Assembly: GCF_041276405.1 (NCBI RefSeq)
Contig: NZ_JBGGGT010000002.1
Span: forward strand, 1,835,001 to 1,899,000
Source of the DNA: Microvirga sp. TS319
GTDB taxonomy: Bacteria; Pseudomonadota; Alphaproteobacteria; Rhizobiales; Beijerinckiaceae
Length of the DNA: 64,000 nt
Direction of reading: 5' to 3'
In this document: piece after piece, positions 1,438 through 61,847 of the stretch
Layout of the letters: every line of letters starts with the position of its first letter
Position numbering within the stretch: the first letter of the stretch is position 1
The notes under the pieces: model-generated
The model's input: the letters and a program-made list of their open reading frames with translations, nothing else
Told to the model about the DNA's origin: nothing
Databases searched by the model: none
Position numbers and translations under genes: made by a program

Positions 1438-1468
1438 TTCCCTTTTCGAATCGCCGGATGCCCGCGCC

Positions 1469-2872: not shown

Positions 2873-2895
2873 TCGGGCACGTGACGACGGTAAGC

Positions 2896-3570: not shown

Positions 3571-3663
3571 CGCGTATCCCTTCGCATCCGAAAGTCACGC
3601 AGGAACGAGTGGCCGACGCGCGTTGTTCCGGACCGGGGGGCTAGGGATTCGATCGGAACACGG

Positions 3664-4446: not shown

Positions 4447-4512
4447 TCAACGCTCCAAGGATAACATTGGTGCCCGCCCCGTCCAGGAAAAGAGAGCAGG
4501 TGTCGCAGCCCG

Positions 4513-4998: not shown

Positions 4999-5007
4999 GT
5001 TGCTTCC

Positions 5008-6270
5008 TCAATAGGCGGTCTCGGACAGGCCGCGCGAGTCGATCCGTCGCGGTGCGAGGCCCTCCGCCTTGAGGGCCTCGAATACCTCCAATGTATGTTG
5101 TCTGTCGCGAGTTTCGATAGTGATGTCGATGGAAACGCCTTTGGCGGGCACGTCGAGGAAGAGGCGGCCGTGGGAGACTTCGAGGATGTTGGCGCCCAGG
5201 TTCCCGAGAAGGCTCGCCACACGTCCCAGGAGTCCGGGCCTGTCGTGGGACGTGATCCGGAAGGAGGCGATCCTGTCGTCCCGCTCCAGTTCGCGCACCA
5301 TGACCGAGGCGAGGATACGGGCATCGATATTACCGCCGCAGAGCACCAGGCCGACCCGCTTGCCTTCGAAGCGCTCGGGCTCGGCCAGCATGGCGGCGAG
5401 CCCCGCCGCGCCCGCGCCCTCGGCCATGGTCCGCTGCAGGGTGGCATAGGCGTTCACTGCGCGCTCGATCAGCGGTTCCTCGACAAGGATGATGTCCGGG
5501 ACGAGATCCCGCACGATCGGCAGCGGCAATTGGCCCACGGTCTTGACCGCGATGCCTTCCGCCAGCGTCGCGCCGCCGATGGGACGCTCCTCGCCGCGGA
5601 TCGCATTCGTGAAGGACGGGTAGAGGGCCGCCTCGACGCCGATGATCTCGATGGAGGGCTTCAGGGCCTTCGCGGCGACGGCGATTCCCGAGATCAGGCC
5701 GCCGCCCCCGATGGGCACGACGATCTGGTCGAGATCGGGCGCATCGGCCAGCATTTCCATCGCGATGGTGCCCTGACCCGCCATGACCTTCGGATCGTCG
5801 TAGGGATGGACGAAGACGAGCCCCTCGGCCTCGGCGATCTCGCGCGCCTTGGCGGCGGACTCGTAGAGCGTCTCGCCGAACAGCACCACGCGCGCGCCGT
5901 AGGAGCGGGTATTCTCTGCCTTCACCAGGGGAGCGCTCTCCGGCATGACGATGACGGCCGGGATGCCGAAGCGCCGGGCGTGGTAGGCCACGGCCTGGGC
6001 ATGGTTGCCCGCCGACATGGCGATGACGCCGCGGCGGCGCTCCTCGGGCGCCAGGCTCTCCAGCTTGTTGACCGCGCCGCGCTCCTTGAAGGAGCCGGTG
6101 GGCTGCATGTTCTCGTGCTTGACGCAGACATTCGCGCCCGTGATCTGGGAAAGGCGGGGCGCAGGCACCAGAGGCGTGCGCAGAACCTGGCCCCGAACGG
6201 TGTCGGCTGCGCGCTCCACGTCCTGCAGGGTGATGGCATAATCGGCCACGGCTTCCTCCGGTTTTCCCAT
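5008..6270 (-). CDS. ilvA: Threonine ammonia-lyase (threonine dehydratase) with C-terminal ACT domain
   Basis: PLP enzyme converting threonine to 2-oxobutanoate and ammonia, the first committed step to isoleucine. The PLP-lysine motif PTGSFKERGA gives Lys62; the phosphate-binding glycine loop is PIGGGGLISG; the later CGGNIDARIL motif is also present. Residues ~335-415 form a single ACT domain (SFRITSHDRPGLLGRVASLL), giving a 420-residue protein like the short IlvA/TdcB-with-ACT form, rather than the 500-residue E. coli IlvA. Start ATG at 6270 has AAGGA 7 nt upstream; a long open frame continues above it but is the antisense-like overlap of the next gene. Operon partners lie on both sides with short gaps. 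Confidence 0.93.
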   Translation of the reverse strand: MGKPEEAVADYAITLQDVERAADTVRGQVLRTPLVPAPRLSQITGANVCVKHENMQPTGSFKERGAVNKLESLAPEERRRGVIAMSAGNHAQAVAYHARRFGIPAVIVMPESAPLVKAENTRSYGARVVLFGETLYESAAKAREIAEAEGLVFVHPYDDPKVMAGQGTIAMEMLADAPDLDQIVVPIGGGGLISGIAVAAKALKPSIEIIGVEAALYPSFTNAIRGEERPIGGATLAEGIAVKTVGQLPLPIVRDLVPDIILVEEPLIERAVNAYATLQRTMAEGAGAAGLAAMLAEPERFEGKRVGLVLCGGNIDARILASVMVRELERDDRIASFRITSHDRPGLLGRVASLLGNLGANILEVSHGRLFLDVPAKGVSIDITIETRDRQHTLEVFEALKAEGLAPRRIDSRGLSETAY

Positions 6271-6296
6271 GATATCATCCTTAGGCGGAATCTTCC

Positions 6297-7628
6297 TTAG
6301 ACAGTTCTCGGCGTCGTGTCCTGAAAGCCCAGCAATCCGCCGGGCCGGAAGATCAGAAAGACGACGAGCGCCGCATAGAGAGCGATATCCCGTCCCTCGA
6401 TCGGCAGATAAGCCGACCAGACGGTTTCGAACAATCCGATGACGAAACCGCCGAGCAGCGCCCCCGGCACCGAGCCGATGCCGCCGATCACCGCGCCGAT
6501 CAGGGCCTTCAGGCCATACTGAAACCCGCCCGCAAAGCCCAGGCCCCCGTACTGCACGACGATCAGCATGCCCGAGAGGCCCGCCATGGCTCCCGCAAGG
6601 GCGAGCGTCTGCGTCAGGAGGCGCGAGCCGTCGACGCCCATGATCGCCGCCGCGCGGGCGTCGTCCGCGACGGCCCGCCACGCCCGTCCGAAGGCCGTCG
6701 CCTTCATCAGCCACAAGAGCCCGAGCGCGGCGATCAGCCCGGTCCCGGCCGTCATGACGCTGATGGGCGTGAGGCTGACCAGGAAGCTCCCCGCCCGGGC
6801 CAGGGGCCACGCATCGGCCCAGATGGGGGGCAGCCAGATCGTTACCGGGCTCTGGACGAGGCGCAGATATTCCATCAGGGCGAGCGAGAGGCCGACCGTC
6901 GCGATGAGGCTCGGTTGGGAGCTGGCCGTGGTGATGCGGCCGATTGTGAAATATCCGCCGACGGCGCTGTGCATCGCGCCCGCGAAGACGGCGCCCGCGA
7001 GACCCGCCGCGAGTCCCAGAAGCGGGGAGTTCAAGCCCGACACGATGACCAGGGCCGCTCCCGTGACGGTGGCGGCCGATCCCACGGCCGCGAGTTCCCC
7101 GAAGGCCAGGTTGACGCGCCCGCTCAGACCGAAGACCAGCGCGAAGGCCACGGACAGAAGGGCGTAGATCGCCGTACGCGGGAGGCTCACCAGAATCTGC
7201 TGCAGCCAATAGGCTAATCCGGCCGGAAGCTCGATCAACGCCGCGTCCGGCGGGCTGCCCGGATCCGCCGCGATGCCCTCGGGCGTTTCGAGATAATAGT
7301 GCTTGAGCATGTAGAGGCTCGCGCCCGAGATCGGGCCTTCCTCGGTGGCGAGCCCGGTCAGCTCGGACTTGTCGAGGGACAGGCCCTCGGCCGCGAAGGT
7401 GCAGACGACATAGCGGTCGAGCGGGGGATGGTCCGGCGATTCGGCCGAGTAGAGCACCGTCAGGCTTCGCGGTGCCGGGCCTTCCTGGATGCGCTGGACT
7501 GTGATCGACGCGCCTGGATTAAGGGCCGGCAGGGTGGACCGGCATATGCGCGCCTGATCCGCGTCGATGGACAGGCCGCAGGCACTCAGCAGGGCAAAGG
7601 GGACGATAAGGACCAGATTTCGGAACAT
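6297..7628 (-). CDS. Branched-chain amino acid ABC permease (LivH family) with N-terminal lipoprotein-like domain
   Basis: A 443-residue two-part protein. Residues 1-17 look like a lipoprotein signal ending in the lipobox LLSAC (Cys17); residues ~18-130 are a soluble, presumably periplasmic segment with two cysteines (29 and 76); residues ~131-443 are a LivH-type permease with about eight spans, including FGLSGRVNLAFGELAAVGSA, a coupling-helix region (FGRAWRAVADDARAAAIMGV) and a final GLLG.. end. LivH proteins are usually ~290 residues with no such front end. No LivM, LivG, LivF or LivK gene is next to it. The longest frame begins at 7670; ATG 7628 is chosen because it starts the signal sequence and has AGGA 9 nt upstream. 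Followed 26 nt later by ilvA, which fits a branched-chain amino acid link. Confidence 0.8.
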   Translation of the reverse strand: MFRNLVLIVPFALLSACGLSIDADQARICRSTLPALNPGASITVQRIQEGPAPRSLTVLYSAESPDHPPLDRYVVCTFAAEGLSLDKSELTGLATEEGPISGASLYMLKHYYLETPEGIAADPGSPPDAALIELPAGLAYWLQQILVSLPRTAIYALLSVAFALVFGLSGRVNLAFGELAAVGSAATVTGAALVIVSGLNSPLLGLAAGLAGAVFAGAMHSAVGGYFTIGRITTASSQPSLIATVGLSLALMEYLRLVQSPVTIWLPPIWADAWPLARAGSFLVSLTPISVMTAGTGLIAALGLLWLMKATAFGRAWRAVADDARAAAIMGVDGSRLLTQTLALAGAMAGLSGMLIVVQYGGLGFAGGFQYGLKALIGAVIGGIGSVPGALLGGFVIGLFETVWSAYLPIEGRDIALYAALVVFLIFRPGGLLGFQDTTPRTV

Positions 7629-7750
7629 GCCCTTGGTCCTGTGCAGCTCTGAATATTGCGTGGACACCAAAGGTTTCAGCTTCTTGCTTTGCTCAGATGC
7701 GCCAGTTTAGCTATGTTGTATCGAAGCCGCGAGCCGCACAGAGAGGGCCG

Positions 7751-8470
7751 ATGAATCCGAAATGTGTAGCTTTCGTGCGGCTGATTGCAATCTCTTTTAC
7801 GTTCTGGGTTTTTTCCGCTGAAGCCCGATCCCAGGAGGCATGGGTGGACCCCTGGCTTGAAAACTCCCAGGTTCCAGCGATCGCCGCCAAGGCACCTGGA
7901 TTCAACCATGGGACGAGCCTCTGCTCAATTCACGCATACTTGCGGAAGCTGAATCCCAGAGGGGCCAACCTCAGAGCAGGCCCGGGACGGAATTTTCTCA
8001 TCGTGGCGCGAATAGCCGGAGCCAACCCGGAAGATGACATGCAGCCAGAGTTTCAGGTGATCGGCGCGCGAAACGGCTGGCTAATGATCCACGATCCCCA
8101 CTGGGCGGAGTATGGTGCCGACAATCCGCAGGTGCTTTACAAGGGATCCGCCTGGGTTGCCCCGGGTCTAATCGCATTCGACATGGAGGGCTACACGCTC
8201 TTTTCCAAGCCAAGGATCGGGGCAGCCGTCCTTCTCGCGCTCAAAGGTCCCGAGGAGGAATGGACCGGCGCCAACGTCAGAGTCGAGCAGGTGCATGGCT
8301 GCAGCGGAGGCTTCCTCGACATCACCGTCAGGAAGAAGGATGGAACGAGGAGCCGTGGGTGGTTCGCCGCCATCTGTGGCAATCAGGGGACTACATGCTC
8401 GTTCGGCAATGAGCCGCTTATGATCGAGGAACGCAGGGGAAAACTCATCAGCGCGACAGACCCGGAGTGA
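7751..8470 (+). CDS. Secreted SH3-domain protein
   Basis: A 239-residue protein with a Sec-type signal peptide (basic start, then the FVRLIAISFTFWVF core and a site near AEARSQEA). A bacterial SH3b-like motif follows: GANLRAGPGRNFLIVARI, then VIGARNGWLMIHDP. A second half with GSAWVAPGLIAF resembles another SH3-like strand set. Four cysteines in the mature part could form disulfides in the periplasm. The start at 7751 (GAGAGGG just upstream) is preferred over the longer frame at 7697, because the extra residues would spoil the signal peptide. Divergent from the LivH-fusion gene. Such proteins often bind peptidoglycan or peptides; no specific role can be assigned. Confidence 0.7.
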   Translation: MNPKCVAFVRLIAISFTFWVFSAEARSQEAWVDPWLENSQVPAIAAKAPGFNHGTSLCSIHAYLRKLNPRGANLRAGPGRNFLIVARIAGANPEDDMQPEFQVIGARNGWLMIHDPHWAEYGADNPQVLYKGSAWVAPGLIAFDMEGYTLFSKPRIGAAVLLALKGPEEEWTGANVRVEQVHGCSGGFLDITVRKKDGTRSRGWFAAICGNQGTTCSFGNEPLMIEERRGKLISATDPE

Positions 8471-8501
8471 CAGGTCTGTCGTACCGATTGTGAGAGCGCG
8501 G

Positions 8502-9602
<1,101 letters not shown>

Positions 9603-9747
9603 TTAAATCGCTCTAAAAAAGGGCTCGGCGTCGCATTCGGAACATTCCTGAGGGAAAACAGACAGGGCTGCCATGCATTGACGGTAACCTTGGGCGCTGT
9701 TTAATCGCCAGGATGGGCATTCGGGCCGAAGCAGGGAAAGGCGCTCC

Positions 9748-10800
9748 ATGGACGAGAACGCGGAAGTGACATGCGAAAAGCACGGTGCCGCCGGCATCAT
9801 CACGCTCAATCGTCCCCGCGCCCTCAACGCCCTGACCCTGACCATGGTGCGCGAGATGCGCCGGGCCCTCGATGCCTGGGCCGCGGACCCGGAGGTCTCC
9901 CGCATCGTCGTCCAGGGCGCCGGCGAGAAGGCGTTCTGCGCGGGTGGCGACATCCGCCGCCTCACCGATCTTCTGCAGGCGGGCGAGCGCGACGAAGCGC
10001 TCGCGTTCTGGCGCGAGGAGTATCAGCTCAACATTCGGATCAAGCATTACCCGAAGCCATATGTCTCCCTCATCGACGGCATCGTCATGGGCGGCGGTGT
10101 CGGCGTGTCTCTGCACGGATCCCACCGCGTCGCGGGCGAGCGCTATCTCTTCGCGATGCCGGAAGTCGGCATCGGCTTCTTTCCCGACGTGGGCGCGACC
10201 TATGCCCTGCCGCGCCTTCCCGGCCGCACCGGCATGTATCTGGCGCTGACCGGCGAGCGGGTGAAGCAGGCCGACGCGGTGATGCTCGGCCTCGCCACCC
10301 ATGCGGTCCCGAGCGCCGCGATGGAGTCCCTGCGCCAGGCCCTGATCGCAGGCGAGCCGGTGGACGAGGCGCTGGCAAAGGCCTCCTTCGATCCCGGACC
10401 CGCGCCGTTGAGTCCGGAGCGCGCGGTCATCGATTCCTGTTTCTCGGCCGGGAGCGTCGCCGGCGTGCTGGAGTGCCTCGACGAGGCAGTGGATCAGGGC
10501 AGCGAATTCGCGGCCAGGACGGCGGCGGGCATGCGCGCCAAGTCGCCGACCAGCATGAGCATCGCCTTCGAGCAGGTGCGCCGAGGCGCCTCCCTGTCCT
10601 TCGAGGACGCCATGAGGACCGAGTTCCGCATCGTCTCCCGAATCGGCGACGGCAGGGACTTCTTCGAGGGTGTCCGGGCGGTTCTGGTCGACAAGGACAA
10701 TCAGCCCCGCTGGGATCCGGCCACCCTCGAGGGCGTGACGCGGGAAGCGGTCGAGCGCTACTTCGCGGGCCTGGGCGCCCACGAACTGGAGACCCGCTGA
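9748..10800 (+). CDS. 3-hydroxyisobutyryl-CoA hydrolase (enoyl-CoA hydratase family)
   Basis: Hydrolyses 3-hydroxyisobutyryl-CoA in valine breakdown. The crotonase fold is seen from NRPRALNALTLTMV through the oxyanion-hole segments EKAFCAGGDIRRL and DGIVMGGGVGVSLHG. The following MPEVGIGFFPDVGATYALPR is the signature that separates HIBCH-type hydrolases from plain enoyl-CoA hydratases, with the catalytic Glu and Asp in MPE and PDVG. The ~350-residue length and C-terminal half (SPTSMSIAFEQVRRG, DFFEGVRAVLVDKD) also match that subfamily. Its stop overlaps the start of the next small membrane gene by one base (TGATG), so the two are translationally coupled. Confidence 0.9.
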   Translation: MDENAEVTCEKHGAAGIITLNRPRALNALTLTMVREMRRALDAWAADPEVSRIVVQGAGEKAFCAGGDIRRLTDLLQAGERDEALAFWREEYQLNIRIKHYPKPYVSLIDGIVMGGGVGVSLHGSHRVAGERYLFAMPEVGIGFFPDVGATYALPRLPGRTGMYLALTGERVKQADAVMLGLATHAVPSAAMESLRQALIAGEPVDEALAKASFDPGPAPLSPERAVIDSCFSAGSVAGVLECLDEAVDQGSEFAARTAAGMRAKSPTSMSIAFEQVRRGASLSFEDAMRTEFRIVSRIGDGRDFFEGVRAVLVDKDNQPRWDPATLEGVTREAVERYFAGLGAHELETR

Positions 10801-11258
10801 TGCCCCGGAACGGCAACCACGGCGCAGCGCAGGAAGCCGCGCGGGACTATCTCTCGGACCGGATCGAGGAGCGTCCGGCAGCACCCGCCTCCATGCGCTG
10901 GGGCTTCGTCCTGACCTGGTTCATGCGGGTGCTCGCGATCATCTGGATCATGAAGGGGCTCAGCTCCTGGTCGGTGATCCTGGGGATCTGGACGCCCGCC
11001 GGTCAGTTCGAGGCCCGGTCGACGGGTTACCAGGCGATGATCATCTATTTCGCCCTGATCGACCTGATCGCGGCGGTCGGACTGTGGATGGCCGGCACCT
11101 GGGGCGGGATCATGTGGCTCCTGGCGGTCATGAGCCATCTGATCCTCGCGGCCTTCTTCCCGAGCATCGTCTCCAGCGGCATTCTCACGATCGTGTTCTT
11201 CCTCACGCTCGTGGCGGTCTATGTGGCGGTGTCCTGGCTCGCGGCCCAGGAGGAATAG
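10800..11258 (+). CDS. Small four-span membrane protein (DUF6163-like)
   Basis: A 152-residue protein with a hydrophilic N-terminus (~30 residues) and four hydrophobic segments: roughly 35-60, 75-98, 102-120 and 124-145. It resembles the uncharacterised DUF6163 family found in Hyphomicrobiales; that name is given from memory of the family's shape and is only moderately secure. The ATG shares a base with the stop of the hydroxyisobutyryl-CoA hydrolase gene, so expression is coupled, but a functional link to valine catabolism is not shown. Confidence 0.65.
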   Translation: MPRNGNHGAAQEAARDYLSDRIEERPAAPASMRWGFVLTWFMRVLAIIWIMKGLSSWSVILGIWTPAGQFEARSTGYQAMIIYFALIDLIAAVGLWMAGTWGGIMWLLAVMSHLILAAFFPSIVSSGILTIVFFLTLVAVYVAVSWLAAQEE

Positions 11259-11535
11259 GCGAGCTCCCGCGCGGCCGGGTTTCCCGGAGGCGCGCCTCAC
11301 ACAGAAGTGTATCCTCAAGAACACAGTTCGGAGATACATCGCAGGAGAGGCCGGTCGCGAGGGCTGAAGTCGGAGCCGAGGACAATTTTGCCATAAAACG
11401 GCCCCGAAGTTCTTCGTTTTCGATACCGTTCCTTAATTCTATCCCGGCAGTTTTTGCTGGGAGCGGGGTGCTCCGGACGATGGTCCTGACGCTTCCCGTC
11501 GCCGAGCCACACCTAACCGAGAAGAGCCTGCGCTC

Positions 11536-12792
11536 ATGTTGTCCCGCCGTACCCTCCTGACAGGATCGCTTGCCCTTGTCCTTACGCCGGCCACTGTCGC
11601 CATGGCGCAGACCCAGGCCGAGTGGTCGCAGAATTACGAAGCCGTCTCGCGCACCCGCGTGCAGCGGACCTCGACTCCGATGCTCTCCCAGGAATCCCTG
11701 GCCGCAACCGAGCAGATGATCGAGTATTACCGGAACATCGCCGCCCGCGGCGGATGGCAGCCCGTCCAGGGCGTGCAGGGCCTGCGCGTCGGTTCCAAGA
11801 GCCCGGCCGTGGCCGCTCTGCGCCAGCGCCTCATCATCACGGGCGATCTCGATCAGTCGGCGGGCGAATCGCCGATCTACGATTCCTATGTGGAGGCCGG
11901 CGTGCGCCGCTTCCAGGCTCGGCACGGCATCAGCTCCACCGGCACCGTGACGGCCGCGACCGTGGCCGCGATGAACGTGCCTGTCGACATCCGCATCCGC
12001 CAGCTCGAGATCAACGTGGCGCGCCTGCGCAGCCTCGTGGCCGGTGGCCTGCCGAACCGCTACGTGGTCGCCAACATCCCGGCCGCGCTCGTCGAGACCG
12101 TGGAGGGAGGCATGGTCCATACCCGCCACGCCGCCGGCGTCGGCAAGAGCGACCGCCAGTCTCCGCTCCTGAACACCAAGGTGGTCGAGGTCAACTTCAA
12201 CCCCTACTGGACCGTGCCCGCTTCGATCATCAAGAAGGATCTGATCCCGAAGATGCAGAAGGAGCCGAACTACCTGACGGACAACAAGATCCGCATCTTC
12301 AGCGGGGACCGGGAGATTCTCCCGTCCCAGGTCAACTGGTTCTCGGACGAGGCGACCCGCTACCGCTTCCGTCAGGACCCGGGCGGCGAACTCAACTCCA
12401 TGGGCTTCGTGCGCATCAACATTCCGAACCAGCACGGCGTGTACATGCACGACACGCCCTCGAAGGGCATCTTCGGCGACGATTTCCGCTTCGTCTCCTC
12501 GGGCTGCATTCGTGTGCAGAACGTGCGCGACTATATCGAGTGGCTCCTGAAGGACACCCCCGGCTGGAGCCGCGAGCAGATCGACGCCACGTTCAAGTCG
12601 GGCGACCGGGTCGACGCGCGGCTGGCCCAGCCGGTGCCGATCCACTGGATCTACATGACGGCCTGGGCGACTCCGGACGGGCTCGTGCAGTTCCGCGACG
12701 ACATCTACAACAAGGACGGTCTCGGCGCCTCCATCCCGGTGGCGAGCCGCACCCCGACCGAGCCGGACGAGGAAATGTTCCTCCAGAACTAA
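11536..12792 (+). CDS. L,D-transpeptidase with peptidoglycan-binding domain (YcbB/LdtD type)
   Basis: Periplasmic enzyme that makes 3-3 cross-links in peptidoglycan or attaches lipoproteins. Residues 1-24 are a signal peptide with a twin-arginine start (SRRTLLTGSLALVL, AMA cleavage site). Residues ~82-147 are a PG_binding_1 domain (VGSKSPAVAALRQRL). Residues ~176-345 are the YkuD catalytic domain, with His305 in YMHDTPSK and the nucleophile Cys324 in SSGCIRV. The domain order is that of YcbB, but at 418 residues it is shorter than the ~600-residue E. coli protein. It follows a 277-bp gap that must hold its promoter, and ends at a clear terminator. Confidence 0.9.
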   Translation: MLSRRTLLTGSLALVLTPATVAMAQTQAEWSQNYEAVSRTRVQRTSTPMLSQESLAATEQMIEYYRNIAARGGWQPVQGVQGLRVGSKSPAVAALRQRLIITGDLDQSAGESPIYDSYVEAGVRRFQARHGISSTGTVTAATVAAMNVPVDIRIRQLEINVARLRSLVAGGLPNRYVVANIPAALVETVEGGMVHTRHAAGVGKSDRQSPLLNTKVVEVNFNPYWTVPASIIKKDLIPKMQKEPNYLTDNKIRIFSGDREILPSQVNWFSDEATRYRFRQDPGGELNSMGFVRINIPNQHGVYMHDTPSKGIFGDDFRFVSSGCIRVQNVRDYIEWLLKDTPGWSREQIDATFKSGDRVDARLAQPVPIHWIYMTAWATPDGLVQFRDDIYNKDGLGASIPVASRTPTEPDEEMFLQN

Positions 12793-12815
12793 GGTCCGCG
12801 AATCCCGGAAAGACG

Positions 12816-12847
12816 ACAGCCCGCCTCCCAGGCGGGCTGTTGCTTTT
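12816..12847 (+). terminator. Rho-independent terminator after the L,D-transpeptidase gene
   Basis: An 11-bp perfect stem (ACAGCCCGCCT, loop CCC, AGGCGGGCTGT) followed by TGCTTTT, 24 nt after the stop codon. Confidence 0.85.
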
Positions 12848-12968
12848 CATGAGCCGGGTCCACAAGTCCCTGGAGCGGCTTGGCGCGCTCGGGCTCCCCA
12901 TGATAAAGGCCTGGGCCATCGGGAACTGAGCACCTTCAGGCGGGGCTCACAGCAAGGCGAGAACGACC

Positions 12969-14273
12969 ATGAGCGCGAGCGAAGCAGCAAGAAATCACCT
13001 GTCCAACAGCTTTTTCTCGGCCAGCCTCGCCGACAGCGATCCCGAGATTGCCCGCGCCATCGGGCTCGAACTCGGCCGCCAGCGCGACGAGATCGAGCTG
13101 ATCGCCTCGGAAAACATCGTCTCCCGCGCCGTCCTGGAGGCCCAGGGCTCGGTGATGACCAACAAATACGCGGAGGGCTATCCGGGCCGCCGCTATTACG
13201 GCGGCTGCCAGTTCGTCGACATGGCCGAGGAGCTCGCCATCGAGCGCGCCAAGCGCCTCTTCGACTGCAGGTTCGCCAACGTCCAGCCCAATTCCGGCTC
13301 CCAGGCCAACCAGGCCGTGTTCATGGCGCTCATGAAGCCGGGCGACACCTTCATGGGCCTGGACCTCGCCTGCGGCGGCCACCTGACCCACGGCTCGCCC
13401 GTGAACATGTCGGGCAAGTGGTTCAACGTGGTGAGCTACAAGGTCCGCGAGAGCGATCAGATCATCGACATGGACGAGGTCGCCCGCCTCGCCCGCGAGC
13501 ACAAGCCGAAGGTGATCGTGGCCGGCGGCTCGGCCTATTCCCGGTTCTGGGACTTCGCCCGCTTCCGCGAGATCGCCGACGAGGTCGGGGCGTTCTTCAT
13601 GGTGGACATCGCCCACTTCGCCGGTCTCGTGGCGGGCGGCGCGCATCCGTCGCCGTTCCCCCATGCCCATGTGGTCACGACCACCACGCACAAGACCCTG
13701 CGCGGTCCGCGCGGCGGCATGATCCTCACCAATGACGAGGACATCGCCAAGAAGGTGAATTCGGCGATCTTCCCCGGCCTCCAGGGCGGCCCGCTCATGC
13801 ACGTGATCGCCGCCAAGGCCGTGGCCTTCGGCGAGGCCCTCCGCCCCGAGTTCAAGCTCTACGCCCACGCGGTGGTGGAGAACGCCAAGGTGCTCGCCGA
13901 TGCCATGCTGGCCGGCGGCTACGCCATTGTGGCGGGCGGCACGGACAACCATTTGATGCTGGTGGACCTGCGCCCGAAGAAGCTCACCGGCAAGGCGGCC
14001 GAGGCGGCTCTGGGCCGCGCCCACATCACCTGCAACAAGAACGGCGTGCCCTTCGATCCCGAGAAGCCGATGGTGACCTCCGGCATCCGTCTCGGCACCC
14101 CCGCCGCGACCTCGCGTGGCTTCGGCGTGGCCGAGTTCCGGACGGTCGGCGAGCTGATCGTCGAGGCGCTCGACGGTCTTGCCAAGCACGGTGAGGAAGG
14201 CAACGCCCCGGTCGAAGAATCGGTGAAGGTCCGCGTGCACGAGCTGACCCGCCGCTTCCCGATCTACGCATAA
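12969..14273 (+). CDS. glyA: Serine hydroxymethyltransferase
   Basis: PLP enzyme interconverting serine + tetrahydrofolate with glycine + 5,10-methylene-tetrahydrofolate, the main one-carbon source. The PLP-lysine motif is clear ([16 protein letters not shown]), as are [25 protein letters not shown] and the C-terminal [14 protein letters not shown]. Length (434) is normal. It is the first gene of a run glyA-nrdR-ribD-ribE-ribH-nusB-thiL with very short gaps; the grouping is typical of alphaproteobacteria. The 130 bp upstream of the ATG, after the transpeptidase terminator, must contain the promoter but no clear -35/-10 pair was picked out. Confidence 0.97.
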
Positions 14274-14286
14274 AACCGGATCGACC

Positions 14287-14784
14287 ATGCGCTGTCCCTA
14301 TTGCGGGAGTCTCGACACCCAGGTGAAGGATTCCCGGCCGACGGACGACTCCTCCTCCATCCGCCGCCGCCGCGTCTGTCCGGATTGCGGCGGCCGGTTC
14401 ACGACCTTCGAGCGCGTGCAGCTGCGCGAGCTGACGGTGGTGAAGCGCTCGGGGAGGCGCGTGCCCTTCGACCGGGACAAGCTCCAGCAATCGGTGGATG
14501 TGGCCCTGCGCAAGCGCTCCGTCGATCCCGAGCGCGTCGAGCGCATGATCAACGGCATCGTGCGCCAGCTCGAGAGCATGGGCGACGGCGAGGTGCCGAG
14601 CGAAACCGTGGGCGAGCTCGTCATGGAAGGCCTCAAGGCGCTCGATGACGTGGCCTATGTGCGCTTCGCCTCCGTCTACAAGAACTTCCGCGAGGCCAAG
14701 GATTTCGAAGAGATTCTCGGGAAACTGGCGGAAGAGCCGGAGGACGCTCCGCCTCTCCAGAAGAAGCCCGCGCAGTCCGAGTGA
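14287..14784 (+). CDS. nrdR: Transcriptional repressor NrdR
   Basis: ATP/dATP-sensing repressor of ribonucleotide reductase genes. The zinc ribbon uses Cys3, Cys6, Cys31 and Cys34 (MRCPYCG ... VCPDCGG), followed by an ATP-cone ([20 protein letters not shown] to [17 protein letters not shown]). 165 residues is the usual ~150 plus a short acidic/Pro-rich tail. It starts 13 nt after glyA and its TGA overlaps the ribD ATG by one base. Confidence 0.97.
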
Positions 14785-15920
14785 TGAGTTCGTCCGGCGC
14801 ACAGGATCGGGTTTTGGAACGACACCCATGGGACGAGCGCTTCATGCGCCTCGCCATCGCGCTCGGCGAGCGCAATCTCGGCCTCACCTGGCCCAACCCT
14901 TCCGTGGGCTCCGTCGTGGTGGACGAGAGCGGGGATGCCCCTGTCATCGTCGCTCAAGGAGCGACCCAGGCGGGCGGGCGTCCGCATGCGGAGCGGGTCG
15001 CGCTCGCGGCGGCCGGTGAGCGGGCGAGGGGGGCGACCCTCTACGTCTCCCTGGAGCCATGCTCCCACCACGGCAGGACGCCTCCCTGCGCCGATGCGGT
15101 CGTGGAGGCGGGCGTCACCCGCGTGATCTCGGCCGTCGAGGACCCGGATACCCGCGTCGCCGGGCTGGGCCACGCCCGGCTGCGCGCCGCCGGAATCGAG
15201 GTGGTGGCCGGCTGCCTGGAGCCTCTGGCGCGCCGCGCCCATCGCGGGCACATCGCCCGTGTCACGAGGGGACGGCCCGTCGTCACCGTGAAGCTCGCCC
15301 GCACGACCGAAGGCCTGGCGGGGTCGCGCAACGGACCGCGCCTGATGATCACGGGGGACATCGCGAACGCGAAGGTGCACCTGATGCGCGCCCATGCGGA
15401 TGCCGTCATGGTCGGCGTCGGCACGATCCTGGCCGACGATCCGCTGCTCAACGTGCGCCTGCCCGGCCTCGAGAGCCGCGCGCCCGTCCGCATCGTGCTC
15501 GACTCGCATCTGCGCACGCCCCTGACGGCCCGCATCGTCGCGGGCGCCCGCGAGATCCCGACCTGGATCGTCACCACGCTTGCCGCGCCCGTTGGGGCGG
15601 AGCGCGCCCTCGTCGCGGGGGGCGTCGAGGTGCTGCGGGTCGCGGACGAGGGTGGGCAGGTGTCGCTTTCCGAGGCCCTGACCCTGCTCGGGACCCGCGG
15701 GCTGACCCGGCTGTTCTGCGAAGGCGGGCCGGGGCTTGCCGATGCGCTGGCCCGGGCCGATCTCATCGACGAGCTGATCCTGGTCACCGGCCGTTCCGCG
15801 CGCGGCGAGGGCGATGTCCCGGCCCTCGGGCTGGCACTGCAGGACCGCATGGACGCCCTCGACCTCTACGCCGACGAACAGGTCGGCTCCGATCTTTTCA
15901 TGTTCTGGGAGAAGCCCTGA
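14784..15920 (+). CDS. ribD: Bifunctional diaminohydroxyphosphoribosylaminopyrimidine deaminase / 5-amino-6-(5-phosphoribosylamino)uracil reductase
   Basis: Catalyses the second and third steps of riboflavin synthesis. The N-terminal deaminase has the zinc site HAERVAL plus EPCSHHGRTPPC; the C-terminal reductase begins near PVVTVKLARTTEGLAGSRNG and has GVGTILADDPLLNVR and FCEGGPGLADAL. 378 residues. ATG at 14784 overlaps the nrdR stop (TGATG); a GTG one codon earlier is possible. The end overlaps ribE by one base, so nrdR-ribD-ribE are translationally coupled. Confidence 0.96.
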   Translation: MSSSGAQDRVLERHPWDERFMRLAIALGERNLGLTWPNPSVGSVVVDESGDAPVIVAQGATQAGGRPHAERVALAAAGERARGATLYVSLEPCSHHGRTPPCADAVVEAGVTRVISAVEDPDTRVAGLGHARLRAAGIEVVAGCLEPLARRAHRGHIARVTRGRPVVTVKLARTTEGLAGSRNGPRLMITGDIANAKVHLMRAHADAVMVGVGTILADDPLLNVRLPGLESRAPVRIVLDSHLRTPLTARIVAGAREIPTWIVTTLAAPVGAERALVAGGVEVLRVADEGGQVSLSEALTLLGTRGLTRLFCEGGPGLADALARADLIDELILVTGRSARGEGDVPALGLALQDRMDALDLYADEQVGSDLFMFWEKP

Positions 15921-16555
15921 TGTTTACGGGAATCGTGACCGATATCGGCGAGGTCGTGTCCGAGGAAGGGGCGCAGGGCACCCTGAAGCGCCTGCGGATC
16001 GATGCGTCCTACGACCCTGAGACCATTGTGCTCGGCGCCTCCATCGCCTGCGGAGGCCCCTGCCTGACGGTCGTGGCCGTCGGCGCGCGCGAGGGCGGCT
16101 GCTGGTTCGACGTGGATGCGGCGGCGGAGACGCTGGACCGCACCACCGTGGGCGAGTGGAAGGCGGGAACGCGGATCAACCTGGAGCGCTCTCTCAAGAT
16201 CGGCGACGAACTCGGCGGTCATATCGTCACCGGCCACGTGGACGGCTTGGCCACCATCGTGGCCCGGGAGGCGATCACCGCCGGCGACGATCCCTGGGGG
16301 CCGACCGCGCGCTTCGTCATCCGGGCGCCGTCCGCTCTTGCGCCCTTCATCGCTGAGAAGGGCTCCGTATGCCTCGACGGCACGTCTCTGACCGTCAACT
16401 CGGTCGAAGGCGATCTCTTCTCGGTGCTCATCATCCCTCACACGCTCGCCGTGACCACCTGGGGCGAGCGCCAGGAGGGCGACAGGCTCAACCTGGAGGT
16501 CGACCTCATGGCCCGCTATGCGGCACGGCTTGCGGAGGCACGCCGGGCGGAGTAG
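15920..16555 (+). CDS. ribE: Riboflavin synthase, alpha subunit
   Basis: Dismutates two 6,7-dimethyl-8-ribityllumazine molecules to riboflavin. Two lumazine-binding repeats are seen, the first starting [12 protein letters not shown] with the CGGPCLTVV segment, the second starting around residue 98 ([10 protein letters not shown]) with [14 protein letters not shown]. 211 residues. Start overlaps the ribD stop by one base. Confidence 0.96.
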
Positions 16556-24019: not shown

Positions 24020-24182
24020 ATCGGACGTGACATCGAACCCGCATCCGATGCCCTAGTCGATAGTGTGAGCATCGAATTAATCCCAAAAGTGGAATCCCCT
24101 TTTGGATCCGATGCTCTAAGCCTCTGTTTTTGAGCATCTTTTCACGTAAGACCGGTTCCCACTTTTGCGTTCGATGATCTAG
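24020..24182. repeat. Cluster of three palindromic repeats between DUF177 and plsX
   Basis: The 307-bp gap 23949-24255 holds three members of the GAGCATCGGACG family: 24020-24049 (short), 24067-24116 (full, GAGCATCGA ... CCGATGCTC with AAAAGTGGA/CCCCTTTT inner arms) and 24132-24180 (reverse orientation, degenerate). No ORF of note. The plsX promoter should lie between the last copy and the ATG at 24256, or within the cluster. Confidence 0.8.
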
Positions 24183-50161: not shown

Positions 50162-50857
50162 ATGGCGTCCGGACAAACCCAGCCAGCTCTCCACCTTTCA
50201 CATGTCGAGCGCCGCTATCCGCAAGGGGACACGTTCCTCGAGGTGCTGCGCGGCACCGAACTCGCGATCTGGCCGGGCGAAATCGTGGCCCTCATCGCGC
50301 CTTCCGGGACGGGAAAATCGACGCTGCTCCACGTCGCGGGCCTTCTCGAAAAGCCCGACGGGGGCGAGGTCTTCGTCGGCGGCAAGCCGACATCGCATAT
50401 GAGCGACAAGGAGCGCACCCGCGTGCGCCGGGAGGAGCTGGGCTTCGTCTACCAGTTCCACCACCTGCTGCCGGAATTGTCGGCGATCGAGAACGTGGTC
50501 ATCCCGCAGCTCATCCGTGGCCTGCCGAAGGCTGAAGCCGAGGATCGCGCGACCCAGCTCCTGACCTTCCTGGGGCTAGGCAAGCGCCTCAAGCACCGCC
50601 CCGGCGAACTCTCCGGCGGCGAGCAGCAGCGGGTCGCCATCGCCCGCGCGGTCGCCAATGCACCGCGCCTGCTGCTGGCGGACGAGCCGACCGGCAATCT
50701 CGACCCGCACACCGCGGACCGCGTCTTCCAGACGCTGGTCGCCATCGTGCGCGCCTCGCGCCTCGCGGCGCTGATCGCTACGCACAACTTGGAGCTCGCG
50801 GCCCGCATGGACCGCCGCGTGACGATCCGTGACGGGCTGATCGTGCAATTGCCGTAG
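50162..50857 (+). CDS. lolD: Lipoprotein-releasing ABC transporter ATPase LolD
   Basis: ATPase partner of the LolC permease. Walker [13 protein letters not shown], signature [14 protein letters not shown], Walker [14 protein letters not shown]-loop LIATHNLEL. The [20 protein letters not shown] segment is typical of LolD/MacB. 231 residues. After it comes a long non-coding stretch. Confidence 0.95.
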
Positions 50858-51911
50858 AAGACGGCTCGGGCGCATCCGTGGAGACCTGCAGGGCGGGGAA
50901 ATACGGCCCTTCTGTCAGCCTACCGGCGCAAGGATGACCGGAGAAGGGCTATCGTGTTGTCTCGTCGCCGGTGCAGGACGGAAGCCGGCTTTCGGACGTG
51001 AGAACCCCGACTTTAGCGGCCGGTATCGGCCGTGGACGATCCCCGCTCATAGTCGGGGAGTTGCGGCGATGGGATGATCTTATACCGCATAGGCCGACTG
51101 GCTCGACACGTTTCATCGGTCGTCCGAGTTCATCGAGGCCCTCCGGCTTCTGCTCGCTCCGCTGATGCCTCCCGCATGACCTAGAGCATCGTGCGAAGAA
51201 GTGGGAACCGGTTCTTCGCGAAAAACGATGCTTCGCCAAAGAGAAAGAGCAAGCATTCTGATCCCGTCAGAATGCAATTTGCTCTAGAGCATCGGACGTG
51301 AAAAGTGGAATCCACATTTGGGATCCAATCCGATGCTCCACTCCTTAGATGAGCGCATCGTTTGAGCGGACCCGAAGGGCCGCGCCAGCGAATACCGGAT
51401 CCACTTTTCGCTAGAGCATCGAACGTGAAAAGTGGGAACCGGTTTTGCGTGGAAAGATGCTCAAGACCATAGACTTACAGCGTCGGACATGAGTTCGATT
51501 TCACGCCCGACGCTGTAGCGCGGCCCGCTGGGTCCGCACGATGCGCTAGCTCGTGATGCGCGGCATCCGCGACCTGGTCCGCCCTGTGCGTTCGACGAGG
51601 GCCTTCTGGTCCTTCGGGCTCCCGGGACGCGCAGGGCCGGTGGATGATCGACCGTCACGACCCCAAGCCGCAGATCGTCGATCGAGACAATTCGTCGGAG
51701 CCGATCGAACGCTGCGGGATGGTCCAGGGGCTGTTCGGACAGCCCGGGGAGTGAGCGATCCTCACTCTGTCAACACGGGTCCCGTGAGGGCCGTCGCAAG
51801 TGGCAACTCCTGATCGTGTCCGCCGATCCGGCCCCGTCGCCCCGCGAAGGCCCTTCTTCCGCCGCTTTAAAGCTCCGTTGACTCTAATCGCAGCGCCGTG
51901 TCCTCGCTGAC
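50858..51911. other. Long intergenic region between lolD and the SOS-box gene
   Basis: About 1.05 kb with no convincing gene. 50858-51183: G+C-rich sequence with no recognisable feature. 51184-51548: dense repeat cluster (listed separately). 51549-51911: an open frame reading in through WMIDRHDPKPQIVDRDNSSE and stopping at ~51754 is protein-like for ~36 codons from the ATG at 51644, without a Shine-Dalgarno; it may be a gene remnant. A TTGACT at 51878 has no matching -10. Confidence 0.5.
51184..51548. repeat. Dense cluster of about seven palindromic repeats of three families
   Basis: 51184-51232 (GAGCATCGTGCG ... ACGATGC), 51246-51285 (AGAGCAA ... GCATTCTGA / TCAGAATGC ... TTTGCTCT, a third type), 51287-51338 (GAGCATCGGACG ... 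TCCGATGCTC), 51353-51413 (GCGCATCG, with GGACCCGAAGGGCC), 51414-51462 (GAGCATCGAACG ... GATGCTC), 51478-51515 (CAGCGTCGGAC ... CCGACGCTG, a covaried variant) and 51518-51548 (right half ending CCGCACGATGCGC). Paired base changes in both arms of several copies keep the stems. Confidence 0.85.
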
Positions 51912-51955
51912 TTTACAGGGAACATTCAACGAACATAAATGAACACATAGAGAAC
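51912..51955 (+). promoter_or_regulatory. Tandem GAAC-N7-GAAC (LexA/SOS-type) boxes over a candidate promoter
   Basis: Box 1 is GAACATTCAACGAAC (51920-51934), box 2 is GAACACATAGAGAAC (51941-51955). Both match exactly the direct repeat GAAC-N7-GAAC (GTTC-N7-GTTC on the other strand) established as the LexA site in alphaproteobacteria. Their starts are 21 bp apart, two helical turns. A promoter TTTACA (51912-51917)-N17-ATAAAT (51935-51940) would place box 1 in the spacer and box 2 over the transcription start, the classic layout for repression. Confidence 0.75.
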
Positions 51956-51967
51956 AGGAGATCGGAC

Positions 51968-52069
51968 ATGCTTCGCATCATCATCGAAACCGCCGCTGAA
52001 ATCACCTCTCTCATCGTGTTCGGATCCGCCGTGGCAATCTGGGCCCTGGTCCTGGCACCGATCGCCTGA
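51968..52069 (+). CDS. 33-residue single-span membrane peptide, probably SOS-induced (SidA-like candidate)
   Basis: A 34-codon ORF with a textbook ribosome binding site (AGGAG, 7 nt before the ATG). The peptide begins MLRIIIETAAEITS and continues LIVFGSAVAIWALVLAPIA: a short charged N-terminus then a ~20-residue hydrophobic span to the end. Two LexA-type boxes overlap its promoter, the second ending 12 nt before the ATG. Caulobacter crescentus SidA, an SOS-induced cell division inhibitor, is a 29-residue single-span inner-membrane peptide under LexA control; size, topology and regulation agree, and that is the basis of the suggestion. I cannot align the two sequences here. It lies 165 bp upstream of dnaE, on the same strand. 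Alternative: a type I toxin-like peptide or other small stress protein. Confidence 0.7.
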   Translation: MLRIIIETAAEITSLIVFGSAVAIWALVLAPIA

Positions 52070-52173
52070 TACCCGGAATTAACACTCATACACAGGGTTT
52101 AACAGGAGCGCCTCCCGTTGAGCGTTCGCGAGAAACACTAGTGGATCTTCCACTGTCAAGCCTCGCGGACGCT

Positions 52174-52208
52174 ACGAGAATCGGGCAGTGTGAAGTCCAT
52201 ATTCTCGT
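52174..52208. promoter_or_regulatory. Inverted repeat in the dnaE leader
   Basis: ACGAGAAT (52174-52181) and ATTCTCGT (52201-52208), 19 nt apart, ending 26 nt before the dnaE GTG. Followed by AATAAAATT rather than a T tract, so not a terminator on the plus strand. It may be an operator or a leader stem. Confidence 0.35.
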
Positions 52209-52234
52209 AATAAAATTCCGGTTAGGCGTTCAAA

Positions 52235-55200
52235 GTGGCACGCATTCTCCAGGACGTGGGGTTCGTCCATCTGCACGTGCACTCCTCGTATTCGCTGCTC
52301 GAGGGGGCCCTGAAAGTCGCGCAGCTGCAGAAGCTCGCGGCTGCCGACAAGCAACCGGCCCTGGCGCTTACCGACACCAACAATCTGTTCGGCGCGCTCG
52401 AATTCTCGGAGAAGATGGCCGGGTCGGGTATTCAGCCCATCGCCGGCGTTCAGCTTTCCGTCTGCTTCGAGGAGCCCGATCCGGTCGCCCGGGTCATGCC
52501 TCAACCCGCCAATATCGTGGTGCTCGCGCAGATGGAGGAGGGCTACCGCAACCTCATGCGGCTCGTGAGCCATGCCTATTTCGGCGTGCCGCTCGGCGAG
52601 ACGCCGCGTGTCGCGGCTCCTGTTCTCACGACCCACAGCGAAGGCCTCATCGCCCTGACCGGCGGCTTTTCCGGGCCGCTCGACTGCGCTTTGCGCAACG
52701 GCGGCCGCCAGGAGCTGGCGCAGGCGCGCCTCGACATGCTCAAGAGCGCCTTCGGCCATCAGCTTTACGTGGAGATCCAGCGCCACGGCCTCGACGAGGA
52801 GCGGATGGTGGAGGGCGAGCTGATCGCGCTCGCCGATCGCAACGGCCTTCCCATCGTGGCCACCAACGAGCCGTTCTTCTCCTCGCCGAAGGATTACGAG
52901 GCGCACGACGCGCTGCTGGCCATCGCCGAGGGCCAGATCGTTTCCAACGGCAATCGCCGACGCCTTTCGCCCGAGCATTGCTTCAGGACGCGTCAGCAGA
53001 TGATGGAGCTGTTCTCCGATCTGCCCGATGCGCTCGGCGCGACCGTCGAGATCGCCATGCGCTGTTCGACGCGCGTGCGGACCCGCAAGCCCATCCTGCC
53101 GAATTTCGGCACCGGCGCCGACGCGGCGACGCTCGACGAGGGCGAGGAGCTTCAGCGCCAGGCGGAGGAAGGGCTCGCCAGGAGGCTTGCCGCGCATGGT
53201 CCCGCGCCGGGCCTGACCGAGCAGGATTACCAGGACCGGCTCGCGTTCGAGATCGGCATCATCCGCAAGATGAAGTTCCCCGGCTACTTCCTCATCGTGG
53301 CGGACTTCATCAAATGGGCGAAGCAGCACGACATTCCCGTCGGTCCGGGCCGCGGCTCGGGTGCGGGATCTCTCGTCGCATACGCACTCACGATCACCGA
53401 TCTCGATCCATTGCGGTTCACGTTGCTCTTCGAGCGCTTCCTCAATCCGGAACGCGTGTCGATGCCCGACTTCGACATCGACTTCTGCGTGGAAGGCCGC
53501 GAGCGCGTGATCGAATACGTGCAGAAGCGCTATGGCGAGGAGCAGGTCGCCCAGATCATCACGTTCGGTACGCTGCTGGCGCGCGGCGTGATGCGCGACG
53601 TGGGCCGCGTGCTCGAAATGCCTTACGGCCAGGTCGACAAGCTCACCAAGCTGGTTCCGCAGAACCCGGCCAATCCGGTGACCCTGGCGCAGGCGATCGA
53701 AGGCGAGCCGAAACTGCAGGCCGCCATCGACGAGGAGCCGGTCGTCAAGCGCATGCTCGACATTGCGCAGAAACTCGAGGGACTGCACCGTCACGCATCG
53801 ACCCACGCCGCAGGCGTCGTGATCGGCGACCGTCCGCTGCAGGAACTGGTGCCGCTCTACCGAGACCCGAAGACCGGCATGCGCGTGACCCAATTCAACA
53901 TGAAATGGGTCGAGCAGGCGGGTCTGGTGAAGTTCGACTTCCTCGGCCTGAAGACGCTCACCGTGCTGCGCACGGCGGTCGACCTCATCAAGCGGAAGGA
54001 CATTCACATCGATCTGTCCGCGCTGCCGCTCGACGACCGCAAGACCTACGAGATGCTCCGGCGCGGCGAAACGGTCGGCGTGTTCCAGGTGGAATCGGTC
54101 GGCATGCGCAAGGCGCTCGTCGAAATGGAGACCGACCGTTTCGAGGATATCATCGCGCTCGTGGCGCTCTACCGCCCGGGTCCGATGGCGAACATCCCGG
54201 TCTATTGCGCGCGCAAGCTCGGAAAGGACGAGCACAACAAGAAGGATTGGTACCCCCACGACAAGCTGGAGCCGATCCTGCGCGAGACCTTCGGCATCAT
54301 CGTCTACCAGGAGCAGGTGATGGAGGTCGCGAAGGTCCTCGCCGGCTACTCGCTCGGCGACGCCGACCTTCTGCGCCGCGCCATGGGCAAGAAGATCAAG
54401 GCGGAAATGGATGCGCAGCGCGAGCGCTTCGTCGCCGGCTCCGCCAAGGACGGCCTCGACAAGGCGAAAGCCAACGAGATCTTCGATCTGCTCGCGAAAT
54501 TCGCCGATTACGGCTTCAACAAGAGCCACGCGGCGGCCTATGCCCTCGTGGCATTCCAGACCGCCTATCTCAAGGCGAATTTCCCGGTCGAATTCCTGGC
54601 GGCGTCGATGACGCTCGATCTCGACAACACGGACAAGCTCTCGGAATTCCGCCGCGAGGCCCAGCGCCTCGGCTTCAAGGTGATCCCGCCCACCATCAAC
54701 CGCTCGGGCGTGGTGTTCGACGTGGTCTATGATGCGGAGGGTCAGGGCTCCATCCTCTACGCGCTGGCTGCCGTGAAGGGCGTGGGTCGCCAGGCCATCG
54801 AGGCGGTGGTGGAGGCGAGAGGCGACGAGTCCTTCAAGGATCTCGCGGATTTCGCGCGCCGCATCAATCCCAAGGCGCTCAACAAGCGCACGCTCGAAAA
54901 CCTCATCGCGGCCGGCGCTTTCGACGAGCTGGAGCCGGACCGGGCGAAAGCCTGCGCCTCCATCGACGCCATGATGAGCCTCGCCCAGCAATCCTATGAG
55001 GCGGCCAATGGCGGCATGATCGACATGTTCGGCGGCATGGCCTCGGCGGACGTGCAGCTTCGTATCCCTCCTTATGAGCCCTGGCCCTCCGCCGAGCGGC
55101 TGCAGCGCGAATACGATGCCGTCGGCTTCTTCCTCTCGGGCCATCCGCTCGATGAATACGGCGATCTGCTCCAGAAGCTGCGGGTGCAGAGCTGGGCCGA

Positions 55201-55708
55201 TTTCTGCCGCTCCGTGAAGGCGGGCAACTCCGTCGGCAAGGTCGCGGCGACCATTCTCGACCGGCAGGAGCGGCGCACGAAAACCGGCAACAAGATGGGC
55301 ATCCTGACCCTCTCGGATCAGACCGGGCAATTCGAGGCCATCATCTTCTCGGAAGGGCTCATGCGTCTGCGGGATGTGCTGGAGCCCGGGACCGCCGTCG
55401 TCCTGATGCTCCAGGCGGGCGTCGAGGGCGAGGAGGTGAGGGCGCGGATCGGCATGGCCGAACCTCTGGAGGAGGCCATCGCCAAGCACCAGAAGGGCAT
55501 GCGGATCTTCCTGCGCGACGAGCGCCCCATTTCCAGCGTCTACGAACGCCTGAAGGTGAGAGGCGAGGGGGAGGTGTCCCTCGTGCTGATCCTCGACGAC
55601 GGCGACCGGGAGGTCGAAGTGAAGCTCCCCGGCAAGTACATGGCCACGCCCCAGATCGCCGGTGCTCTCCGGGCCGTGCCCGGGGTGGTCGAGGTGCAGA
55701 TGAGCTAG
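52235..55708 (+). CDS. dnaE: DNA polymerase III subunit alpha
   Basis: Replicative polymerase. N-terminal PHP domain (FVHLHVHSSYSLLEGALKVA), polymerase core with GPGRGSGAGSLVAYALTITD and PDFDIDFCVEGRERVIEYV (catalytic aspartates), FGIIVYQEQVMEVAKVLAGY, then helix-hairpin-helix, OB fold (GKVAATILDRQERRTKTGNK) and a C-terminal tail. 1157 residues, the DnaE1 size, not the shorter mutasome DnaE2. GTG start at 52235 with only a weak AGG upstream. The stop TAG doubles as the first bases of a palindromic repeat. Confidence 0.95.
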   Translation: MARILQDVGFVHLHVHSSYSLLEGALKVAQLQKLAAADKQPALALTDTNNLFGALEFSEKMAGSGIQPIAGVQLSVCFEEPDPVARVMPQPANIVVLAQMEEGYRNLMRLVSHAYFGVPLGETPRVAAPVLTTHSEGLIALTGGFSGPLDCALRNGGRQELAQARLDMLKSAFGHQLYVEIQRHGLDEERMVEGELIALADRNGLPIVATNEPFFSSPKDYEAHDALLAIAEGQIVSNGNRRRLSPEHCFRTRQQMMELFSDLPDALGATVEIAMRCSTRVRTRKPILPNFGTGADAATLDEGEELQRQAEEGLARRLAAHGPAPGLTEQDYQDRLAFEIGIIRKMKFPGYFLIVADFIKWAKQHDIPVGPGRGSGAGSLVAYALTITDLDPLRFTLLFERFLNPERVSMPDFDIDFCVEGRERVIEYVQKRYGEEQVAQIITFGTLLARGVMRDVGRVLEMPYGQVDKLTKLVPQNPANPVTLAQAIEGEPKLQAAIDEEPVVKRMLDIAQKLEGLHRHASTHAAGVVIGDRPLQELVPLYRDPKTGMRVTQFNMKWVEQAGLVKFDFLGLKTLTVLRTAVDLIKRKDIHIDLSALPLDDRKTYEMLRRGETVGVFQVESVGMRKALVEMETDRFEDIIALVALYRPGPMANIPVYCARKLGKDEHNKKDWYPHDKLEPILRETFGIIVYQEQVMEVAKVLAGYSLGDADLLRRAMGKKIKAEMDAQRERFVAGSAKDGLDKAKANEIFDLLAKFADYGFNKSHAAAYALVAFQTAYLKANFPVEFLAASMTLDLDNTDKLSEFRREAQRLGFKVIPPTINRSGVVFDVVYDAEGQGSILYALAAVKGVGRQAIEAVVEARGDESFKDLADFARRINPKALNKRTLENLIAAGAFDELEPDRAKACASIDAMMSLAQQSYEAANGGMIDMFGGMASADVQLRIPPYEPWPSAERLQREYDAVGFFLSGHPLDEYGDLLQKLRVQSWADFCRSVKAGNSVGKVAATILDRQERRTKTGNKMGILTLSDQTGQFEAIIFSEGLMRLRDVLEPGTAVVLMLQAGVEGEEVRARIGMAEPLEEAIAKHQKGMRIFLRDERPISSVYERLKVRGEGEVSLVLILDDGDREVEVKLPGKYMATPQIAGALRAVPGVVEVQMS

Positions 55709-55824
55709 AGCATCGGACGCAAAAGTGGGAACCGGTTTTGCGTGAAAAGATGCTCAACATCATAGGCTTAGAGCATCGTGCGGACCCAGCGGGCCGCGCT
55801 AGCGAAAAGTGGACCCGGTTTTGC
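55708..55824. repeat. Two palindromic repeats directly at the dnaE stop
   Basis: 55708-55755 (GAGCATCGGACGC ... GATGCTC, with AAAAGTGGG/CGGTTTTGCG) starts on the last base of the dnaE TAG. 55771-55824 is a hybrid (GAGCATCGTGCGGACCCAGCGGGCC then AAAAGTGGACCCGGTTTTGCG) joining halves of both families. The rest of the 352-bp gap to 56060 shows nothing else; dnaE has no other obvious terminator, so the first stem may act as one. Confidence 0.8.
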
Positions 55825-61776: not shown

Positions 61777-61847
61777 AGGGGGCCTTGATGCGGGACCCCG
61801 GGCAGCGTAAGCCCGTTCATAGACAGTTCGCGTAAGGAAAAGATCTC

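Follow-up and report, generated by a model that had tools for sequence, protein, structure and literature searches.

What is encoded by the short open reading frame (ORF) ahead of dnaE in this DNA, how is it regulated, and is it related to SidA, the small SOS-induced membrane protein that acts on FtsW in Caulobacter and stops division during DNA repair? An earlier note on the window (the whole stretch analysed, 64,000 nucleotides) had proposed a SidA-like candidate inhibitor of cell division. Here the locus, its conservation and its relationship to the Caulobacteraceae peptides are taken in turn, followed by the function that they suggest.

The locus and its SOS operator

The ORF lies on the + strand at positions 51968-52069, begins with ATG and has 33 codons, with MLRIIIETAAEITSLIVFGSAVAIWALVLAPIA as its product, a candidate membrane peptide. 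A Shine-Dalgarno sequence, AGGAG, is found at 51956-51960 (+ strand), 7 nt ahead of the ATG. Two exact matches to GAAC-N7-GAAC precede it on the same strand, LexA-box 1 at 51920-51934 (GAACATTCAACGAAC) and LexA-box 2 at 51941-51955 (GAACACATAGAGAAC), and the end of box 2 is 12 nt from the ATG; reading frame, ribosome binding site and boxes are thus all as the earlier note had described them. The conserved downstream neighbour is dnaE (DNA polymerase III alpha; 52235-55708, + strand, GTG start), which has the better of the genome's two matches to TIGR00594. A -35-like hexamer, TTTACA (51912-51917, + strand), and a -10-like hexamer, ATAAAT (51935-51940, + strand), which follows 17 nt past it, form a plausible promoter, in which box 1 would lie within the spacer and box 2 would cover the transcription start. 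TTTACA is retained at 35 of the 36 genus loci, and a consensus promoter scan of the locus did not report the TTTACA/ATAAAT pair.

The window has five GAAC-N7-GAAC boxes against 1.54 expected, a number reached in 3 of 100 shuffles, and across the whole genome the pattern occurs 211 times and its reversed form 122 times. Given this chance expectation in the window and the 122 reversed-pattern matches, a single box is weak evidence. Chance does not account for two boxes within 36 nt whose distance from a conserved ORF is itself conserved. Box 1 is exact at all 36 loci of the genus (window included) and box 2 at 32, so that no locus is without an exact box and 32 carry the pair; the boxes are positioned at -48 to -51 and -27 to -30, respectively. 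The same kind of box occurs at the SOS genes of the source genome: a GTTC-N7-GTTC box starts 73 nt ahead of the recA ORF start, and the box GAACACAGCGGGAAC starts about 80 nt ahead of the LexA family match of lexA. The published Caulobacter SOS box is GTTCN7GTTC (PMC9578287). Since the boxes stand before recA and lexA of the source genome, they are of the kind that its own SOS system uses as operator. LexA control of the 33-residue peptide gene, which had been only apparent from the window, is therefore strongly supported by the shared operator and by its conservation together with the ORF.

Other boxes were also noted. One in the opposite orientation (61815-61829) lies about 20 nt ahead of an ORF starting ATGGCTACGACCTTT, which we take to resemble frr; given the expected number, this box is probably a chance match. 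Elsewhere in the source genome (L068, G000:C1:723145-723175), two tandem boxes, the first starting 51 nt before it, precede a 179-aa ORF with no Pfam match, a candidate for a further SOS gene.

Upstream of the peptide promoter, about 1 kb (50858-51911) has no convincing gene; it begins after a gene ending at 50857, which by its look we presume to be lolD-like. This region has long, imperfect inverted repeats (51366-51385/51518-51537 and 51476-51492/51501-51517). Four places in the window, where 0 would be expected, carry a motif close to AAAGTGGGAACCGGTTTT: 51429-51446, 55722-55739, 51198-51215 and 24148-24165. The two exact copies flank the peptide-dnaE unit. An Rfam scan of 50850-52400 gave two hits below threshold; each is to a Brucella sRNA and lies on the upstream side of the promoter. 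Positions 51402-51538 match the Brucella sRNA CI27 (RF02600) weakly, with 26.2 bits, below the gathering threshold of 59.8.

The peptide itself is predicted to be a single-span membrane peptide of the SidA size class (33 aa against about 29). AlphaFold2, run on the single sequence, gave one helix over residues 2-29 with a mean pLDDT of 96.6, the hydrophobic stretch covers approximately residues 12-32, and the highest 17-residue hydropathy is 2.36, in agreement with the one membrane span proposed before. No family in NCBIfam or Pfam matched the peptide.

Conservation in the genus, the order and the class

A homologue of the peptide was identified in 35 of the 36 other genomes of the same genus, with E values of 5.2e-4 or better; the sole exception, G026, is an assembly in 780 contigs. 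Among 35 genus ORFs, pairwise differences at codon positions 1, 2 and 3 amount to 3,122, 1,270 and 7,508, respectively. Mean dN is 0.130 and mean dS 0.810 over 584 of the 595 pairs, pairs with dS outside 0.05-3 being excluded. The ratio of 0.16 provides the codon-level conservation that the earlier note had named as a check, and 51968-52069 is a genuine gene under purifying selection at the protein level. At 35 of the 36 genus loci, dnaE is encoded downstream on the same strand after a gap of about 102-169 nt, L007 having no match. Extra copies of the peptide without an exact upstream box were observed at L040 (G007), L037 (G027), L038 (G050) and L296 (G591). The second copy in G007 has an internal stop, and no dnaE was found adjoining the second copies L038 and L296.

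The Hyphomicrobiales, which we take to be the order of the source genome, include rhizobia and methylotrophs. A profile of 27 peptides (A1), already including those of G007, G050 and G055, was used to search this order, and 50 of 297 genomes matched at E 0.01 or better, the window's genome included. Among 50 order loci found in this way (52 listed places less the window and G706), dnaE is downstream on the same strand in 45 and a box lies within 80 nt of the ORF in 39, both features being present in 38. In the window's own family, 8 of 11 genomes of other genera gave no match to A1. The same search of 385 genomes across the class made G421 alone stand out besides the window; the other 29 matching genomes gave weak and mostly partial matches.

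The use of DnaE as query removes the bias of peptide-based searching. Its N-terminus matched in 101 of 101 order genomes, and the region upstream was taken in for 90 of them, the 11 with the lowest DnaE scores being left out; 1,500 nt were read for 30 loci, and 900 nt or up to the contig end for 60. Membrane ORFs of 24-60 aa with a membrane-grade hydrophobic stretch, starting within 90 nt of the box start, were accepted. An exact box was identified in 49 of the 90 Hyphomicrobiales loci; in 45 of the 49, counting the window, a membrane ORF of about 30 aa lies behind the box, so the expectation of short ORFs behind boxes ahead of dnaE in other members of the order is borne out. With the reversed box, one of the 90 loci has a box and none has an ORF. 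The boxed loci with no membrane ORF are those of G451, G046, G476 and G517, and the boxed membrane ORF of G447 lies 1.1 kb from dnaE. No exact box was found in the remaining 41 loci.

The survey was extended to a sample of the class, in which 163 genomes were drawn, 152 had a DnaE match, 110 loci were examined and 42 were left out. A box is present in 17 of the 110 loci, and all 17 have a membrane ORF; the reversed-box control gave two loci with a box and no ORFs. At random positions in the unboxed class loci such an ORF was found in 204 of 3,720 draws, or 155 of 3,720 within the last 450 nt (4.2-5.5%). Fifteen of the 17 boxed genomes are from outside the order and belong to 11 families, G000 and G130 being inside it. 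Two of the eight genomes of the window's family with no A1 profile match, G130 and G249, do have an ORF behind a box when the search starts from dnaE. The other 93 class loci have no exact box. A locus with no box is not the same as an absent gene, as G483 has a membrane ORF before dnaE without a box and one family (f215) has an ORF behind a degenerate box. In this family (L294, L297, L299, L301 and L302) a 27-residue peptide is encoded before dnaE behind GAAC-N7-ATAC, suggesting drift of the operator.

Relationship to SidA

SidA of C. crescentus is a 29-residue, SOS-induced inner-membrane protein (PMC4211646). In the Caulobacteraceae, a membrane ORF of mostly 29-31 aa lies behind the same boxes and before dnaE in 95 of 130 loci, a count that accepts only ATG starts and exact boxes. 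The 130 loci comprise 50 unnamed and 80 named ones, which partly overlap, and several contigs are short at an end; named contigs include those of Caulobacter segnis, Phenylobacterium and Brevundimonas. Of 61 Caulobacter genomes, 60 contain a homologue of the C. segnis ORF (E 0.01 or better; in G813 over 17 residues only). Among 30 Caulobacter loci that were fetched, dnaE is downstream in all, after a gap of about 41-140 nt, and the box is exact in 17 and looks degenerate in the remaining 13. The sidA locus tag is CCNA_02004 (PMC11034885), and dnaE of C. crescentus is CC1926 (PMC1839093). As recN is CCNA_02062 (PMC12700426) and has the old-style tag CC1983, CC1926 should fall at about CCNA_02003-02005, adjacent to sidA. 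Based on locus tags, length and regulation, the Caulobacteraceae ORF before dnaE is almost certainly sidA, and the Caulobacteraceae peptides encoded at this place are here called SidA-type.

The sequences of the two groups were compared by profiles, with 20,000 decoys as a control. Scored with the SidA-type profile, the window peptide reaches 1.7 bits (2,051 of 20,000 decoys), which is not significant, and none of 18 peptides of its genus is recognised (281 to 16,010 of 20,000 decoys). With hhalign, A1 against A2 gave a probability of 3.8% (E 0.011), again not significant, and direct comparison of the peptide with SidA was dropped as proof. A3 against A2 gave 75% (E 2.5e-5), A3 having some misplaced rows. 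Peptides of other Hyphomicrobiales connect the groups. Several of 17 such peptides are recognised by the SidA-type profile, with up to 23.5 bits and 0 of 20,000 decoys, others having up to 10,443 of 20,000. A profile of these 17 scores the window peptide at 33.2 bits (0 of 20,000 decoys), a value favoured by selection because the 17 bridging peptides come mostly from searches with the genus peptides. The same profile gives the 22 SidA-type peptides 2.8-23.7 bits; 14 of the 22 are at 20 or fewer of 20,000 decoys, and the worst is at 1,836.

The dnaE-only ORFs (45 distinct, window left out) were scored with both profiles. At 20 or fewer of 20,000 decoys there are 15 by the genus profile and 12 by the SidA-type profile, where 0.05 would be expected by chance; the median decoy counts are 335 and 1,300 of 20,000, respectively. 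By these scores the kinship appears real and the divergence strong. Of the 43 distinct Hyphomicrobiales peptides that the dnaE survey supplied, 25 contain the SidA-type motif [DE]..[AS][LF]..[VILC]..F, against a mean of 0.08 after shuffling. These 43 come from 44 of the 46 survey ORFs, without that of the window and one of the pair at G462, and two were shortened to an internal ATG; of the two ORFs at G181, one was used in the comparison. The motif occurs in 1 of 15 peptides from outside the order, and the window peptide lacks it, having acidic residues at 7 and 11 and not at 8.

The likeness to SidA therefore consists of a gene before dnaE under GAAC-N7-GAAC control, a length of 29-33 residues, one hydrophobic span, N-terminal basic and then acidic residues, and a family link through other Hyphomicrobiales peptides. 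The differences are also clear. The window peptide has 33 residues, with two acidic residues, E7 and E11, instead of one at position 8, and, unlike the Caulobacteraceae peptides, its span is rich in A and I, with a tryptophan at 25 and without their FVWMMC core. Common ancestry of the window peptide and SidA is supported by the chain of intermediates and the shared locus, rather than by direct similarity. The SidA likeness first suggested from the window alone thus holds, with the order of boxes, ORF and dnaE shared by the Caulobacteraceae and with Hyphomicrobiales peptides bridging both sequence groups. From its sequence and setting, the peptide is a probable divergent SidA orthologue, unexpectedly widespread.

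Proposed function and its alternatives

The following scheme is proposed. In the undamaged cell, LexA would occupy the two promoter-overlapping boxes and block transcription. After RecA-triggered cleavage of LexA, a short transcript with a strong ribosome binding site would be produced, and the 33-residue peptide made from it would insert into the membrane as one helix, its N-terminus probably cytoplasmic (arginine at residue 3). By analogy with SidA, the peptide would most likely bind the late divisome, at FtsW and possibly FtsN, and septal wall synthesis would be held inactive until repair ends. SidA has been described as holding FtsW/FtsI/FtsN inactive (PMC4211646). As a whole, we consider it likely that the gene is the sidA orthologue by locus and ancestry, released from LexA, and that its product holds the late divisome inactive, the part on division being what we infer from SidA.

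Other small membrane inhibitors of division induced by DNA damage are YneA of Bacillus, SosA of Staphylococcus and ChiZ of Mycobacterium, which differ in belonging to Gram-positive and mycobacterial lineages. FtsW is an interaction partner of YneA, and in AlphaFold 3 models of low confidence ChiZ, SosA and SidA sit on FtsW too, with SidA modelled on one side of TM7 and YneA, ChiZ and SosA on the other. Caulobacter has a second such protein, DidA, likewise a small damage-induced membrane inhibitor of division, but SOS-independent and driven by DriD rather than LexA (PMC4211646).

DidA binds FtsN (PMC4211646), and a SidA-lineage SOS membrane peptide could likewise have another target here, for example FtsN, a protease or a transporter. 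The strong divergence of the window sequence from the SidA-type set would fit such a change. No result of this analysis indicates another target, however, and the retention of operator and locus favours a retained function, so that we hold a changed target to be improbable.

A peptide of the TisB/DinQ type, which would depolarise the inner membrane and slow growth instead of acting on division, has a similarly small chance of being correct. TisB is similar in length to the window peptide. Both TisB and DinQ of Escherichia coli are SOS-induced single-span peptides of similar size, and DinQ, which is toxic and 27 aa long, is under LexA control and has an antisense RNA (PMC3567139). Size, single span and LexA control would thus fit equally well. 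These systems differ, however, in being type I toxin-antitoxin pairs that involve an antisense RNA and processed mRNAs, and the tisB start region is structured; a peptide of this type would be restrained by an antisense RNA and a structured leader. From the presumed transcription start, the leader at the window locus would be short; AGGAG stands 7 nt ahead of the ATG, no stable fold was found, and the folding of the presumed transcript (51946-52069) is no more stable than that of shuffled sequences (z +1.29). No inverted repeat of at least 12 nt links the ORF or its leader to 50850-52300, and no Rfam antisense RNA was identified in 50850-52400, although an antisense RNA overlapping in cis would escape both searches. 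Sequence and locus tie the peptide to the SidA-type set instead.

That the ORF is a leader whose translation controls dnaE, the peptide itself being unimportant, would fit the immediate downstream position of dnaE in 35 of 36 genus, 30 of 30 Caulobacter and 45 of 50 order loci, but is made very improbable by the variable distance to dnaE (the gaps given above for Caulobacter and the genus, and a dnaE start 97 to 762 nt past the ORF start over 45 order loci) together with conservation at the protein level, where it is the residues of a membrane helix that are conserved. A consensus scan of the window found no + strand terminator between ORF and dnaE.

In the literature searched, the passages retrieved describe SidA for Caulobacter only; among the matches listed, none concerns SidA in Hyphomicrobiales or an SOS-induced inhibitor of division from that order. 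Much of the Alphaproteobacteria may have inherited from a common ancestor a SidA-type checkpoint peptide whose gene stands ahead of dnaE and is controlled by LexA, the peptide diverging fast while locus and operator are kept, a proposal that we hold with as much doubt as belief. A peptide diverging in this way would be lost to similarity searches alone, and its divergence would perhaps track the divisome target. The locus rule, by which a LexA box, a membrane ORF of about 30 codons and dnaE follow one another, gives candidates in 45 of 90 order genomes with no need of peptide similarity, and the natural variants that it supplies would help to map the action of the peptide on FtsW. As ORFs this short are easily missed, a whole checkpoint layer may be hidden, and, if the proposal is true, the peptide may be the unrecognised SulA counterpart of the Hyphomicrobiales and of several further orders.
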